Below the pieces are notes generated by a model. That model was given only the letters and a program-made list of their open reading frames with translations. It was not told the origin of the DNA and made no database searches. Below are positions 25,842-60,562 of a stretch of 64,000 bases of DNA, piece after piece; position 1 is the first letter of the stretch, and every line of letters starts with the position of its first letter. The position numbers were made by a program, and so were the translations under genes. The DNA is from Cryobacterium aureum (GTDB taxonomy: Bacteria > Actinomycetota > Actinomycetes > Actinomycetales > Microbacteriaceae). The stretch spans positions 406,405-470,404 of the forward strand of contig NZ_PPTG01000009.1 of the NCBI RefSeq assembly GCF_002954245.1, in the 5' to 3' direction.

Positions 25842-25857
25842 TCAACGTTCTCGTTGA
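25842..25857. promoter_or_regulatory. TCAACG palindromic operator (flavin reductase)
   Basis: TCAACGttctCGTTGA, a perfect 6-4-6 palindrome. On the minus strand the CGTTGAC half extends into TTGACA, which with TACGCT 17 bases later forms a promoter for the reductase gene, so bound repressor would cover the -35 box. Confidence 0.75.
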
Positions 25858-25905
25858 AAATCAGCAAGGGTGACGCAGGGAGGAGTCGTACTGAAGTCAT
25901 GTCAA

Positions 25906-27237
25906 TCAATCCTCCAGGGGCTTGAGGTGCTCGTGCTGATGCTGACTTCTCTTCAGCGCGATGAGTCCGACCAAACTGATGGCGGCCACAAAGATTGTGT
26001 AGAAGGATGCCGCGAGCGGATTCTGGGTGACCAGCAGGATGTAGGTGATGATGTACGGCGCTGAGCCGCCGAAGATTGCCACCGCCACCGCATAGACCAC
26101 GGCAACGCCTGTCGCACGATCTCGCGTGGGAAAACGCTCCGACAGAAAGGCCGGCATGGGGCCGCCGATGATGCCGATGAGCAGGCCGGCCACGAACAGA
26201 CTGAACAGACCACCGACGAACCCGAGCCCAATGAGCAGATACAGGGGGTATGAGAGCACCAGCGTGGCCACTGTGCCGAAGAGCAGCACTGGGGCGCGAC
26301 CAACCCGGTCCGACAGAGCACCGAAAATGGGCATGGAGCAGGCGCCAACTAGGCCGGTGACCAGTGACAACCCATAGGCCTCCACGAACGACATCCCATA
26401 ACCCGAGGAGAGAAATGTGGGCATGCCCACCTGGAAAGTATTCCCCAGTGCGTTGTAGACCACGAGCACGGCAACGGTGATCATGAGATACGAGGGGGTG
26501 TAGCGGATGCGAGACGGCGCCAGCGCGGTCGTTTCACCAGCCGCACGCCGGGCCAGAACCTCTTTGAAGTGGGGGGTCTCGTCGACCTTGAGGCGGATGA
26601 TCAGGGCGGAGATGCCCATCGGTGCGGCCAGCAGAAACCCGATGCGCCAGCCCCAGTCGGCCAGATCCTCCGCGGACAGCGTGACTGCCAGAAACGTCGC
26701 CACGCCGCCACCGAGAACGTAGCCGATGGACGTACCGAAGAAGCTCCAGGACCCATACAGTCCGCGTTTTCCCTCGGGGGCGTTCTCGATCATGAGCGAC
26801 ACGGCTCCACCCATTTCGCCTCCGCCCGACAGGCCCTGGGCGATCCGGCAGAGCACGAGGATTACCGTTGCCCACATGCCAATTTCCGAAACTGTGGGAA
26901 GCAGGCCGATGGCCGTGGTGGCAATGGACATGATGAGGATAATGGCGACCAGGACCGGGCGGCGGCCGCGCGAGTCGGTCAGCCGACCGAAGATGACCGC
27001 ACCGATCGGGCGCAGGAAGAAGGCTAGCGCGAAGACCATGAAGGTCAAGAGGATGCTTGCCGTGGGATCGGCACTCGGAAAGAAGAGTGGAGCGATGATC
27101 GGGGCCATAAAGCCGTAGATCGCGTACTCGTACCACTCGATCACGTTGCCGAGGGATCCAGCGATCAATGCTCTGCGAGACGCCTTGAGGTCAATGACCC
27201 GTACTGTCGGCGACAGCACTGCAGATTCTTGTGCCAT
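25906..27237 (-). CDS. MFS transporter (metabolite:H+ symporter type)
   Basis: A 443-residue major facilitator with 12 hydrophobic helices. GSLGNVIEWYEYAIYG (residues 28-43) and the loop 2-3 motif GRLTDSRGRRPVL (about 84-96) place it near the MHS group (proline/betaine, shikimate and aromatic-acid symporters); GALSDRVGRAPVLL is the matching loop 8-9 motif. It should import an organic acid or a related pathway substrate by proton symport. It is transcribed away from the riboflavin-kinase gene, with two operators of the TCAACG type in the shared promoter region, which ties it to the island's regulon. Confidence 0.85.
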   Translation of the reverse strand: MAQESAVLSPTVRVIDLKASRRALIAGSLGNVIEWYEYAIYGFMAPIIAPLFFPSADPTASILLTFMVFALAFFLRPIGAVIFGRLTDSRGRRPVLVAIILIMSIATTAIGLLPTVSEIGMWATVILVLCRIAQGLSGGGEMGGAVSLMIENAPEGKRGLYGSWSFFGTSIGYVLGGGVATFLAVTLSAEDLADWGWRIGFLLAAPMGISALIIRLKVDETPHFKEVLARRAAGETTALAPSRIRYTPSYLMITVAVLVVYNALGNTFQVGMPTFLSSGYGMSFVEAYGLSLVTGLVGACSMPIFGALSDRVGRAPVLLFGTVATLVLSYPLYLLIGLGFVGGLFSLFVAGLLIGIIGGPMPAFLSERFPTRDRATGVAVVYAVAVAIFGGSAPYIITYILLVTQNPLAASFYTIFVAAISLVGLIALKRSQHQHEHLKPLED

Positions 27238-27360
27238 GGAGCACTCTCTCTCGATCGTGAGACGGAAGCGTGGCCATGGGAGGCGACGTCATCGTCGGGT
27301 GGCTGTCGGCGGGGAGAAGCCCTCACCTTCGCTCTAGGGTTGCACGAAGAACGGATGTCG

Positions 27361-27376
27361 TCAACGCTTGTGTAGA
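27361..27376. promoter_or_regulatory. TCAACG-type operator (MFS side)
   Basis: TCAACGcttgTGTAGA. On the minus strand the TCAACG half reads as CGTTGACG, giving a TTGACG -35-like box pointing to the MFS gene. The TGTAGA variant of the right half also occurs at 48087 and 59430. Confidence 0.65.
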
Positions 27377-27416
27377 AAATGGGAAAATTCAAAGCACCCC
27401 TCGTCCGTGAAATTAG

Positions 27417-27432
27417 TCAACGTTGCAGTTGA
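27417..27432. promoter_or_regulatory. TCAACG-type operator (riboflavin kinase side)
   Basis: TCAACGttgcAGTTGA. The right half runs into TTGACG (27429-27434), which with TAGACT after a 17-base spacer forms a plus-strand promoter for the riboflavin-kinase gene. Confidence 0.7.
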
Positions 27433-27521
27433 CGACCCGACTGATCGAACCTAGACTTCACAGCAACACGACTCGTAGGCGACACGGCACGAGAAAAAAC
27501 AGTCTCCGGAGGGCGCACTCA

Positions 27522-59192: not shown

Positions 59193-59273
59193 CGTCTACT
59201 CTCCTCATCATTGCGGAGGGGCGGGGACATCCCTAACGGGACAATTCAACACTATGACGACCCGTCGTTACTG

Positions 59274-59289
59274 TCAACGCTGTCGTTGA
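59274..59289. promoter_or_regulatory. TCAACG operator (ligase pseudogene)
   Basis: TCAACGctgtCGTTGA, a perfect 6-4-6 palindrome. On the minus strand it overlaps TTGACA, with TAGTGT 17 bases later, the promoter of the 57516-59192 gene. Confidence 0.75.
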
Positions 59290-59419
59290 GAGCGAGGGAC
59301 CGATTTCGAATGCATACCGCCGGAGTCCGTGAGGCGCGACTCATAGAGAAGGTAAGGGTAATGAGCAGGCTCATGGTCAGCCTGACACTCTTTTCACATT
59401 GACAGGGAATGGACCTCGG

Positions 59420-59437
59420 TCAACGTGTGTGTAGAAT
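59420..59437 (+). promoter_or_regulatory. TCAACG-type operator overlapping a -10 box, leaderless start
   Basis: TCAACGtgtgTGTAGA at 59420-59435 with TAGAAT at 59432-59437. The ATG of the next gene is at 59446, only eight bases after the -10 box, so transcription probably starts at or next to the start codon and the mRNA is leaderless. Confidence 0.65.
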
Positions 59438-59445
59438 CCGATTCT

Positions 59446-60423
59446 ATGATTACAACGGAATTCACAGAAGCGTTTGGCATCGAACATCCCGTCGTTTGTG
59501 GCGGAATGACAGGCGTGGGCACAGCGGGGCTGATCGCCGCCGTGGCAAACGCCGGCGCTCTCGGATTTCTGTCGGCGCTCACGCAGCCAACGCCGTCCAA
59601 ACTGGACGCGGAGATCCGGCGTACAAAGCAACTGACCAGTCGGCCGTTCGGGGTTAATCTAACAATCCTTCCGACCATTAACCCCGTTCCGTATGACGAG
59701 TACCTCCAGGTGATCATCGACAACGCCATTCCGGTCATCGAGACAGCCGGGTCATCGCCCGAACCTCTCATGGAGCGGCTCAAAGCGGCCGGGGTGAAGG
59801 TCGTTCACAAAGCGGTGGCTGTGCGGCACGCCCTGACCGCCGAGCGTCTCGGAGTAGACGCTGTCAGTATCGACGGCTTTGAATGCGCGGGACATCCCGG
59901 TGAAGAGGACATTCCTGGTCTGGTGCTCATCCCTGCTGCGGCCGCCCGCCTTGGAATCCCCCTCATCGCGTCCGGTGGTTTCGCTACTGGATCAGGGCTG
60001 GTCGCGGCGCTGGCCTTGGGTGCATCCGCGATCAACATGGGTACCCGGTTCGTGGCGACAATCGAAGCTGGCGTGCATGACAACGTGAAGAAGCAGATCG
60101 TCGAGAACTCAGAACACGACACCAACGTCGTCTTCCGATCGTTCCGCAATTCGGCACGCGTGGCCAAGAACGCCATCTCCGACGAGATCCTCGAGATCGA
60201 AGCGCGCGAGGGGACCACATTCGCCGACATCGCACATCTCGCCTCGGGGGCGCGGGGGCGCCAGAACGTGCTCGCAGAAGGGCGCATGGACGACGGCTTG
60301 TGGTGGGCCGGCCAATCCCAGGGCCTCATCACCGAGGTGCTCACCTGCAAGCAGGTAGTCGACTCGATCGTCGCCGAGGCAGAGGAGCTGATTGCCCGAC
60401 GATTGGCTGCGGTCGTCCTCTAG
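59446..60423 (+). CDS. Nitronate monooxygenase / 2-nitropropane dioxygenase-like FMN protein
   Basis: A 325-residue TIM-barrel FMN protein of the NPD group. [26 protein letters not shown] opens the barrel, [11 protein letters not shown] follows, then [36 protein letters not shown], where the His is the catalytic position, [30 protein letters not shown] binds the phosphate, and EILEIE follows. In catabolic islands such proteins act as enoyl-CoA reductases or dehydrogenases as well as nitronate oxidases, so the reaction is uncertain. The ATG at 59446 is preferred; there is no ribosome site, which agrees with a leaderless mRNA. Confidence 0.8.
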
Positions 60424-60532
60424 GCCGGTCTGGTCGGAGTGCACGACCGTCACCCGCATGTCGTCACTGGGGTGTGTGGCGGTGCCGTCAACCGCGCCAT
60501 TGGACGCTTCCCGACACGTGGTGATATGAATG

Positions 60533-60562
60533 TTGACGACCCAGTCAACATCTGCGTAGACT
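60533..60562 (+). promoter_or_regulatory. Promoter with TCAACG-type operator (NTF2-crotonase operon)
   Basis: TTGACG (60533-60538) and TAGACT (60557-60562) are separated by 18 bases; the operator TCAACAtctgCGTAGA (60545-60560) fills the spacer and overlaps the -10 box. Confidence 0.7.

Follow-up and report, generated by a model that had tools for sequence, protein, structure and literature searches.

How is a bacterial gene island governed when one short palindrome stands before operon after operon, and which protein would read it? This question is raised by a window of 64,000 nucleotides from Cryobacterium aureum (C37:406405-470404, C37 being contig NZ_PPTG01000009.1 of an assembly of 4,314,199 bases in 52 contigs). 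A preliminary description of this window had proposed a regulon of fourteen TCAACG-N4-CGTTGA sites and found no obvious regulator for it. Sequence comparison makes it highly probable that the palindrome is the operator of a TetR-type protein encoded at L005:8907-9557 (L005 is the stretch to the right of the window), which would repress a camphor-type catabolic island as one regulon.

The fourteen coordinates are all correct and, as had been claimed, every site lies outside the genes called in our analysis. The exact 6-4-6 palindrome is present at 25842, 40362, 41845 and 59274, the four positions singled out earlier. The regulon reading holds as well, but the set was incomplete, with four more sites at L005:2805, 2857, 8734 and 11388. 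A single misassigned target was found: the site at 44473, between the convergent genes for a short-chain dehydrogenase/reductase (SDR) and a metallo-beta-lactamase (MBL)-fold hydrolase, directs its promoter-like arm into a truncated FAD-protein fragment and not into the MBL gene. These 18 sites are a genuine set, one of them probably a relic. They are as follows, the strand of operators being given as '.':

25842..25857 (.): operator, flavin reductase promoter; 23.7 bits; TTGACA-N17-TACGCT toward the gene
27361..27376 (.): operator between the MFS transporter and riboflavin kinase; 22.8 bits; identical in Cryobacterium frigoriphilum
27417..27432 (.): operator, riboflavin kinase promoter; 21.1 bits; TTGACG-N17-TAGACT
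40362..40377 (.): operator, SnoaL-diketocamphane monooxygenase operon; 24.5 bits; orthologous site in C. frigoriphilum
41755..41770 (.): weaker operator between a SnoaL_4 gene and the luciferase-like monooxygenase (LLM); 18.0 bits
41825..41840 (.): operator, LLM promoter, paired with 41845 at 20-bp spacing; 20.4 bits; pair and spacing kept in C. frigoriphilum
41845..41860 (.): operator, LLM-SDR promoter; 23.2 bits; TTGACA-N18-TAACCT
44473..44488 (.): probable relic operator before the minus-strand truncated FAD-protein fragment; 19.0 bits; TTGACA-N18-TAGGGT; broken frame
47463..47478 (.): operator, CoA ligase-MBL operon; 23.1 bits; TTGACA-N18-TATTTT
48077..48092 (.): operator, MaoC gene; 23.1 bits
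49684..49699 (.): operator between divergent crotonase operons; 22.6 bits; TTGACG-N17-TAGGCT on the plus strand
59274..59289 (.): operator, broken CoA ligase and NMO-like gene; 20.7 bits; TTGACA-N17-TAGTGT on the minus strand
59420..59435 (.): operator, start of the NMO/FabK-like gene; 21.7 bits
60545..60560 (.): operator, SnoaL_4-crotonase operon; 22.0 bits; orthologous site in C. frigoriphilum
L005:2805 and L005:2857: two sites upstream of a P450 gene; 16.9 and 17.5 bits with the first matrix
L005:8734: site between an FMO-type monooxygenase gene and the divergent TetR gene
L005:11388: site at crotonase and SDR genes beyond the TetR gene; TTGAC arm with -35/-10 geometry

The FAD-dependent oxidoreductase-like fragment (44014-44480, minus strand, family assigned by eye) shares 118 bp at 92% identity with positions 83256-83373 of the C. 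frigoriphilum contig. The sites L005:2805 and L005:2857 fall within a called open reading frame (ORF), but its IstB domain spans only residues 13-244 of 416, and the two sites are therefore read as part of the P450 promoter region.

A symmetric count over both strands gives the consensus GTCAACR-N4-YGTTGAC, with most of the information in TCAAC/GTTGA and little in the central four positions. The scores come from a symmetric 18-bp matrix derived from the fourteen window sites, to which the four L005 sites were added later. Since the matrix was made from the same sites, their own scores (18.0-24.5 bits) are no test, and independent support has to come from the genome-wide clustering and from the loci of TetR homologues. 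The next-best window position, a weak match at 15776 (GTCAACATCTTCGCAGAC, 15.1 bits), is outside the island and intergenic by our gene calls. Allowing up to three mismatches, the window holds 89 matches against 33.0 (standard deviation 6.2) in 100 shuffles, a count that mixes noise and signal; this loose count and the 692 two-mismatch forward matches in the genome were set aside as too noisy.

In the whole genome, a strict pattern (TCAACRNNNNNGTWGA, which misses the window sites 41755 and 44473) occurs at 27 distinct places. Sixteen of them, 12 in the window and 4 to its right, lie within C37:432246-481807, that is, about 49.6 kb of 4.31 Mb; the computed binomial chance of such clustering is 1e-24, for a stretch picked after the data had been inspected. 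The reversed pattern matches once per strand. Among the 11 strict matches outside the island, eight were examined, of which seven are inside ORFs and one is intergenic. The preliminary description had named equal frequency in intergenic regions elsewhere as fatal to a regulon, and this check did not refute the reading. The intergenic match (TCAACGAATTCGTTGA), at C37:296211 (L007:10001), is perfectly palindromic and scores 21.3 bits. It stands 30 bp upstream of an ORF assigned by eye as NmrA-like, at a distance of about 136 kb from the island, and may be an outlying member of the regulon.

The candidate regulator is encoded 8.9 kb past the right window edge, divergently from the FMO-type monooxygenase, with the site L005:8734 between the two genes. 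Along L005 the order is P450 with its two upstream sites, an IS21 element, an SDR, the FMO-type monooxygenase, the divergent TetR gene, and the crotonase and SDR genes. The TetR product matches PF00440 (TetR_N, helix-turn-helix) and PF17932 above cut-off, and its structure model is all-helical (mean predicted local distance difference test score, pLDDT, 85) with TetR-fold matches. Furthermore, the putative operator at its own divergent promoter is kept in C. frigoriphilum.

Is the palindrome linked to this protein beyond the genus? The TetR has 553 homologues at E<=1e-10, of which 120 were listed and 25 of these aligned; a scan of genome contigs kept the best 80 of 111 relatives (L013-L092, up to about 10 kb on each side), and 79 of these loci (L014-L092), mostly from Actinomycetota and Pseudomonadota, were scored. 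Sites above 18 bits are present in 68 of the 79 (209 sites in 1.31 Mb), and in 41 a site lies near the TetR gene (no more than 400 bp upstream or 300 bp downstream). On the same loci, 100 column-permuted palindromic matrices gave 0.48 hits on average and four at most. The putative recognition partner of the site, the helix DRASLYYY, is found in 77 of the 79 loci, where it is largely common by construction because the scan seeds included it. None of 30 control loci of other TetR_C_24 regulators reaches 18 bits (maximum 14.2), and DRASLYYY occurs in none of them. The TetRs of L024 and L092 carry DRAAIYYY instead, and neither locus has a site above 18 bits, a hint that helix and operator may change together; an alternative palindrome sought at these two loci gave nothing convincing, L024 carrying two GTTTAC-N6-GTTGAC sites. 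Moreover, among 60 relatives the TetR is found (E<=1e-20) only in G000 and G010, whose motif counts of 9 and 17 (both strands added) are the two highest, against 0-4 in the other 58. Within the genus, three of 57 genomes encode it (E<=1e-20), and a sample of 199 genomes of the family yields one (E<=1e-30).

The same loci bear on the two regulators encoded in the window itself. The MarR (28305) and TetR (23769) genes are both near the left sites, and the former lies 73 bp downstream of riboflavin kinase on the same strand and is 95% identical in C. frigoriphilum. Nevertheless, tblastn (E<=1e-15, over half length) finds no homologue of either in the 80 loci L013-L092, of which 68 among the 79 scored carry the motif. 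Binding of the palindrome by one of these proteins is accordingly very unlikely, and we rejected both, in line with the earlier remark that neither was an evident regulator; the MarR gene is more likely a co-transcribed member of the island.

Some features of the comparison weigh against assigning the palindrome to the TetR of L005. Eleven of the 79 loci have no site above 18 bits, although nine of them encode DRASLYYY and only three are under 10 kb, and in 38 no site lies next to the TetR gene itself. The control loci are shorter (about 3.0-3.3 kb) than those of the positive set (up to 20.7 kb), and near-duplicate loci (e.g., L043/L049 and L060-L062) inflate the counts, which are hence not independent events. 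With the computed link to its clade on the other side, the TetR encoded at L005:8907-9557 is the likely regulator of the palindrome.

How would it act? In 8 of 19 own half-sites, the TTGAC arm is followed by TANNNT at a spacer of 17 (five) or 18 (three), other spacings within 5-40 giving single cases at 29 and 38. Across the 79 loci, 52 of 255 half-sites have the 17-18 spacing, and each of the remaining spacers in the range 5-40 occurs 0-8 times. The arm could thus serve as a -35 element at 25842, 27417, 41845, 44473, 47463, 49684, 59274 and L005:11388, that is, at 8 of the 18 sites, which suggests repression by occlusion. Site 60545, read by eye, lies between a candidate -35 and a candidate -10.

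The other 10 sites, including that between the FMO-type monooxygenase and TetR (L005:8734), lack this geometry, which weakens the occlusion model and would suit a TetR that activates. We regard activation as quite unlikely, given that the overlap with the -35 box, present at eight sites here and in other loci as well, implies occlusion, and that a characterized relative, KstR2, is a repressor (PMC3068626). Nor does the geometry make the motif a shared promoter element or repeat rather than an operator. The arm with its next base is often the -35 consensus TTGACA; still, both arms are conserved, including the one distal to the gene, and the motif is rare in the remaining genome, tracks one TetR clade across phyla and falls to the 0-4 copies mentioned above in relatives without this TetR. 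A mere promoter element or repeat is therefore extremely improbable. From geometry and relatives we infer repression of the island operons. A TetR dimer would occupy both arms and cover the promoter; where the gene-proximal arm may double as the -35 hexamer, the bound dimer would block RNA polymerase. Release would be brought about by a pathway compound; a bicyclic monoterpenoid ketone, for instance camphor, or an early pathway product is the probable ligand.

The sites are also conserved as such. C. frigoriphilum, with the TetR on contig NZ_SOHE01000078, has a closely similar island with ten sites of at least 19.7 bits and an eleventh of 16.0. In ten orthologous pairs the arms have not changed at all (0/100), compared with 18/60 changes in the inner six positions and 1/20 in the outer flank; identity over the 40-base flanks is 50-88%. 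Upstream of the LLM gene the 20-bp double site is preserved, and the gene order is partly different, the right-hand genes being rearranged. G010, of the same genus, encodes a 36%-identical TetR and has six sites over a cluster of LLM, FMO, CoA-ligase and ABC-transporter genes, beside the same valine-type operon that occupies 28905-34404 in our window, within the island and without any site. In G010 (L130-L131), then, this operon adjoins an LLM/FMO cluster that differs from ours, has the operator in common and carries a distant TetR; the place is a possible integration hotspot.

What, then, would be repressed? The genes of the island in the window are:

24552..25646, minus: flavin reductase (Flavin_Reduct, PF01613)
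25906..27237, minus: MFS transporter (MFS_1)
27522..28232, plus: riboflavin kinase (Flavokinase, PF01687)
38604..39731, minus: 3,6-diketocamphane 1,6-monooxygenase homologue, a type II Baeyer-Villiger monooxygenase (BVMO) (4uwm, 642 bits)
39811..40224, minus: SnoaL_2 protein
41152..41676, minus: SnoaL_4 protein
42007..43146, plus: second diketocamphane-monooxygenase-like LLM (4uwm, 314 bits)
43234..44013, plus: SDR
44604..45665, minus: MBL-fold hydrolase
45697..47385, minus: CoA ligase
47493..47954, minus: MaoC dehydratase
48156..49621, minus: crotonase and CMD-like pair
49777..56897, plus: operon of a crotonase, two CoA ligases and a biotin-dependent acyl-CoA carboxylase
58074..59192, minus: broken CoA ligase (AMP-binding domain without AMP-binding_C in the ORF)
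59446..60423, plus: nitronate monooxygenase (NMO)/FabK-like flavoprotein
60610..61895, plus: SnoaL_4 protein and crotonase

Positions 57565-59181 align at 66% with a full-length ligase of C. frigoriphilum; two broken CoA-ligase copies (40439-41014 and 57565-59192) are relatives of the island's intact ligase. Beyond the window, the IS21 element (L005:2717-5184) adjoins the P450 operon, and its istB ORF continues into the P450 promoter region.

Against solved LLM proteins, the product of 38604-39731 appears closest to 3,6-diketocamphane 1,6-monooxygenase (642 bits over 369 residues), the next match having 54 bits. The L005 P450 has P450cam as its best match in the PDB (492 bits), followed by chains named CYP101D5 (391), 101D1 (359) and 101J2 (343) and by P450cin (164), which suggests the CYP101 group; downstream of it, on the same strand, are a PDR-like reductase and a zinc-type alcohol dehydrogenase. 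The classes of the camphor pathway (P450, dehydrogenase, diketocamphane monooxygenase (DKCMO), BVMO, CoA ligase and flavin reductase) are all in the island, the dehydrogenase, which is short, and the BVMO being assigned by class only. DKCMOs use reduced flavin mononucleotide (FMNH2) supplied by flavin reductases (PMC6352141), and the sites at flavin reductase and riboflavin kinase fit this need. From these matches, the island would probably serve camphor-type catabolism. Joint induction would bring together the P450cam-like hydroxylase with its reductase and alcohol dehydrogenase, the type I and type II BVMOs, flavin reductase and riboflavin kinase for FMNH2 supply, uptake, and the CoA-ligase/crotonase breakdown of the opened ring.

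The camphor assignment has evidence against it. The FMO-type BVMO has cyclohexanone monooxygenase as its best PDB match (237 bits, OTEMO 199), the alcohol dehydrogenase (L134:3330-4265) is only 312 residues long, and the P450 is found (E<=1e-80) in this genome alone among 57 of the genus, and not in C. frigoriphilum, while the DKCMO homologue is in both species and in no other of the 57. Camphor hydroxylation by this P450 cannot therefore be the role of the shared island in both species, and C. frigoriphilum must have another first step or substrate. In many of the best PDB alignments of the dehydrogenase, the match starts near residue 93 or stops near 86, as though the protein lacked the structural-zinc lobe. 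A 6-oxocamphor hydrolase identity found no support for the two crotonases tested, this enzyme being absent among their best 60 PDB matches (of 64 and 146). Among the NCBIfam matches listed (for two ligases, the best 25 each), none is above the curated cut-off.

It is possible, if rather unlikely, that the same TetR regulon handles a terpenoid ketone other than camphor, bicyclic or monocyclic, or a steroid-like compound. The island without P450 in C. frigoriphilum, the broken FAD protein behind site 44473, the single PDR-like protein beside the P450 (against the camA and camB pair described for Pseudomonas putida in PMC6027186) and the variety of loci with TetR homologues, which hold BVMOs, SDRs, TonB receptors and hydrolases, would agree with such a substrate. 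Nevertheless, the two most specific enzymes have camphor-pathway proteins as their best solved matches, and a camphor-type substrate is preferred.

A seeded random sample of 30 of the 231 genes downstream of sites in other loci, assigned by Pfam, comprises five FMO, three TonB receptor, two flavin reductase and two SDR genes, one each for LLM, RibBA, crotonase, 3HCDH, hydrolase, periplasmic binding protein and TetR, and 11 without a family. BVMO matches (tblastn) occur in 37 loci; six are divergent within 1.5 kb, four of them from Sphingomonas, and all six have a site in between. RibBA-like stretches are present in three TetR loci, with a site before that of L021 and no site above 18 bits in L024 and L092. 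The chances are about even that GTCAACR-N4-YGTTGAC and the DRASLYYY TetRs form one operator code of Actinomycetota and Pseudomonadota, a transferable control module for the oxygenative attack on cyclic ketones. Since one arm can be a -35 box, a single 18-bp element would confer both promoter and repression on the gene behind it. Such a code, if true, would explain how genes for flavin supply were captured separately by regulons of this clade, Cryobacterium having taken riboflavin kinase, Amycolatopsis ribBA and others flavin reductase.

A literature search that reached few subscription journals found no report of the operator or of camphor catabolism in Cryobacterium. TetR catabolic repressors are of a known kind; as far as these searches reach, the operator, the cross-phylum link to a TetR clade and the content of the regulon are new. 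A TetR clade for which we found no described operator thus gains a predicted one, and with it come predictions of target genes for many bacteria from soil and marine habitats. Control of FMN-supply genes together with the pathway is an idea open to a simple expression test, and the TetR-operator pair is a candidate part for a terpenoid-ketone biosensor.

Several described systems resemble the one proposed here. KstR2 of mycobacteria is likewise a TetR repressor of catabolic genes whose operator is palindromic and lies in divergent promoters, although its targets are cholesterol genes and its operator, AnCAAGnnCTTGnT, differs from our consensus, the printed probe scoring -8.8 bits (PMC3068626). 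The L005 TetR matches KstR2 (PDB 4w1u) with 70 bits by sequence and, at 27% identity, as third by fold. EdcR of Caenibius tardaugens, a substrate-relieved TetR repressor of a steroid catabolic cluster, differs in its TetR_C_11 domain and in a proposed operator, TnnCnnTACnAnTnGTAnnGnnA, over the -10 (PMC8700777). SRTF1 of Pimelobacter simplex is an actinobacterial TetR with a 22-bp palindrome, released by the cyclic ketone progesterone (PMC7062782, PMC7807495); its palindrome might equal the operator described here, which would then already be known for one member, a point against novelty. The pdc cluster for progesterone degradation also has BVMO, LLM and TetR-type genes adjacent (PMC12239570). 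A further parallel is the camphor system of P. putida, with CamR, camRDCAB and the CAM plasmid, which shares TetR-type control of the P450cam operon, diketocamphane monooxygenases and flavin reductase (PMC6027186, PMC4592980). Its pathway leads to isobutyryl-CoA, also an intermediate of valine catabolism (PMC6027186), a convergence point that the valine-type operon within the island would share. The CamR operator, printed as CAGGCTCTATATCTGCGATATACTGAGCAT, scores -5.0 bits at best with our matrix and does not match the operator here. In P. putida, furthermore, the DKCMO genes lie apart from camRDCAB, camS, T, U and V are uncharacterized regulator genes, and Fred is chromosome-coded (PMC6027186). 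In the present island, unlike in P. putida, one motif stands before all these functions and before riboflavin kinase, so that Cryobacterium would have a pathway of the camphor type with an apparently single point of control in place of several regulator genes.

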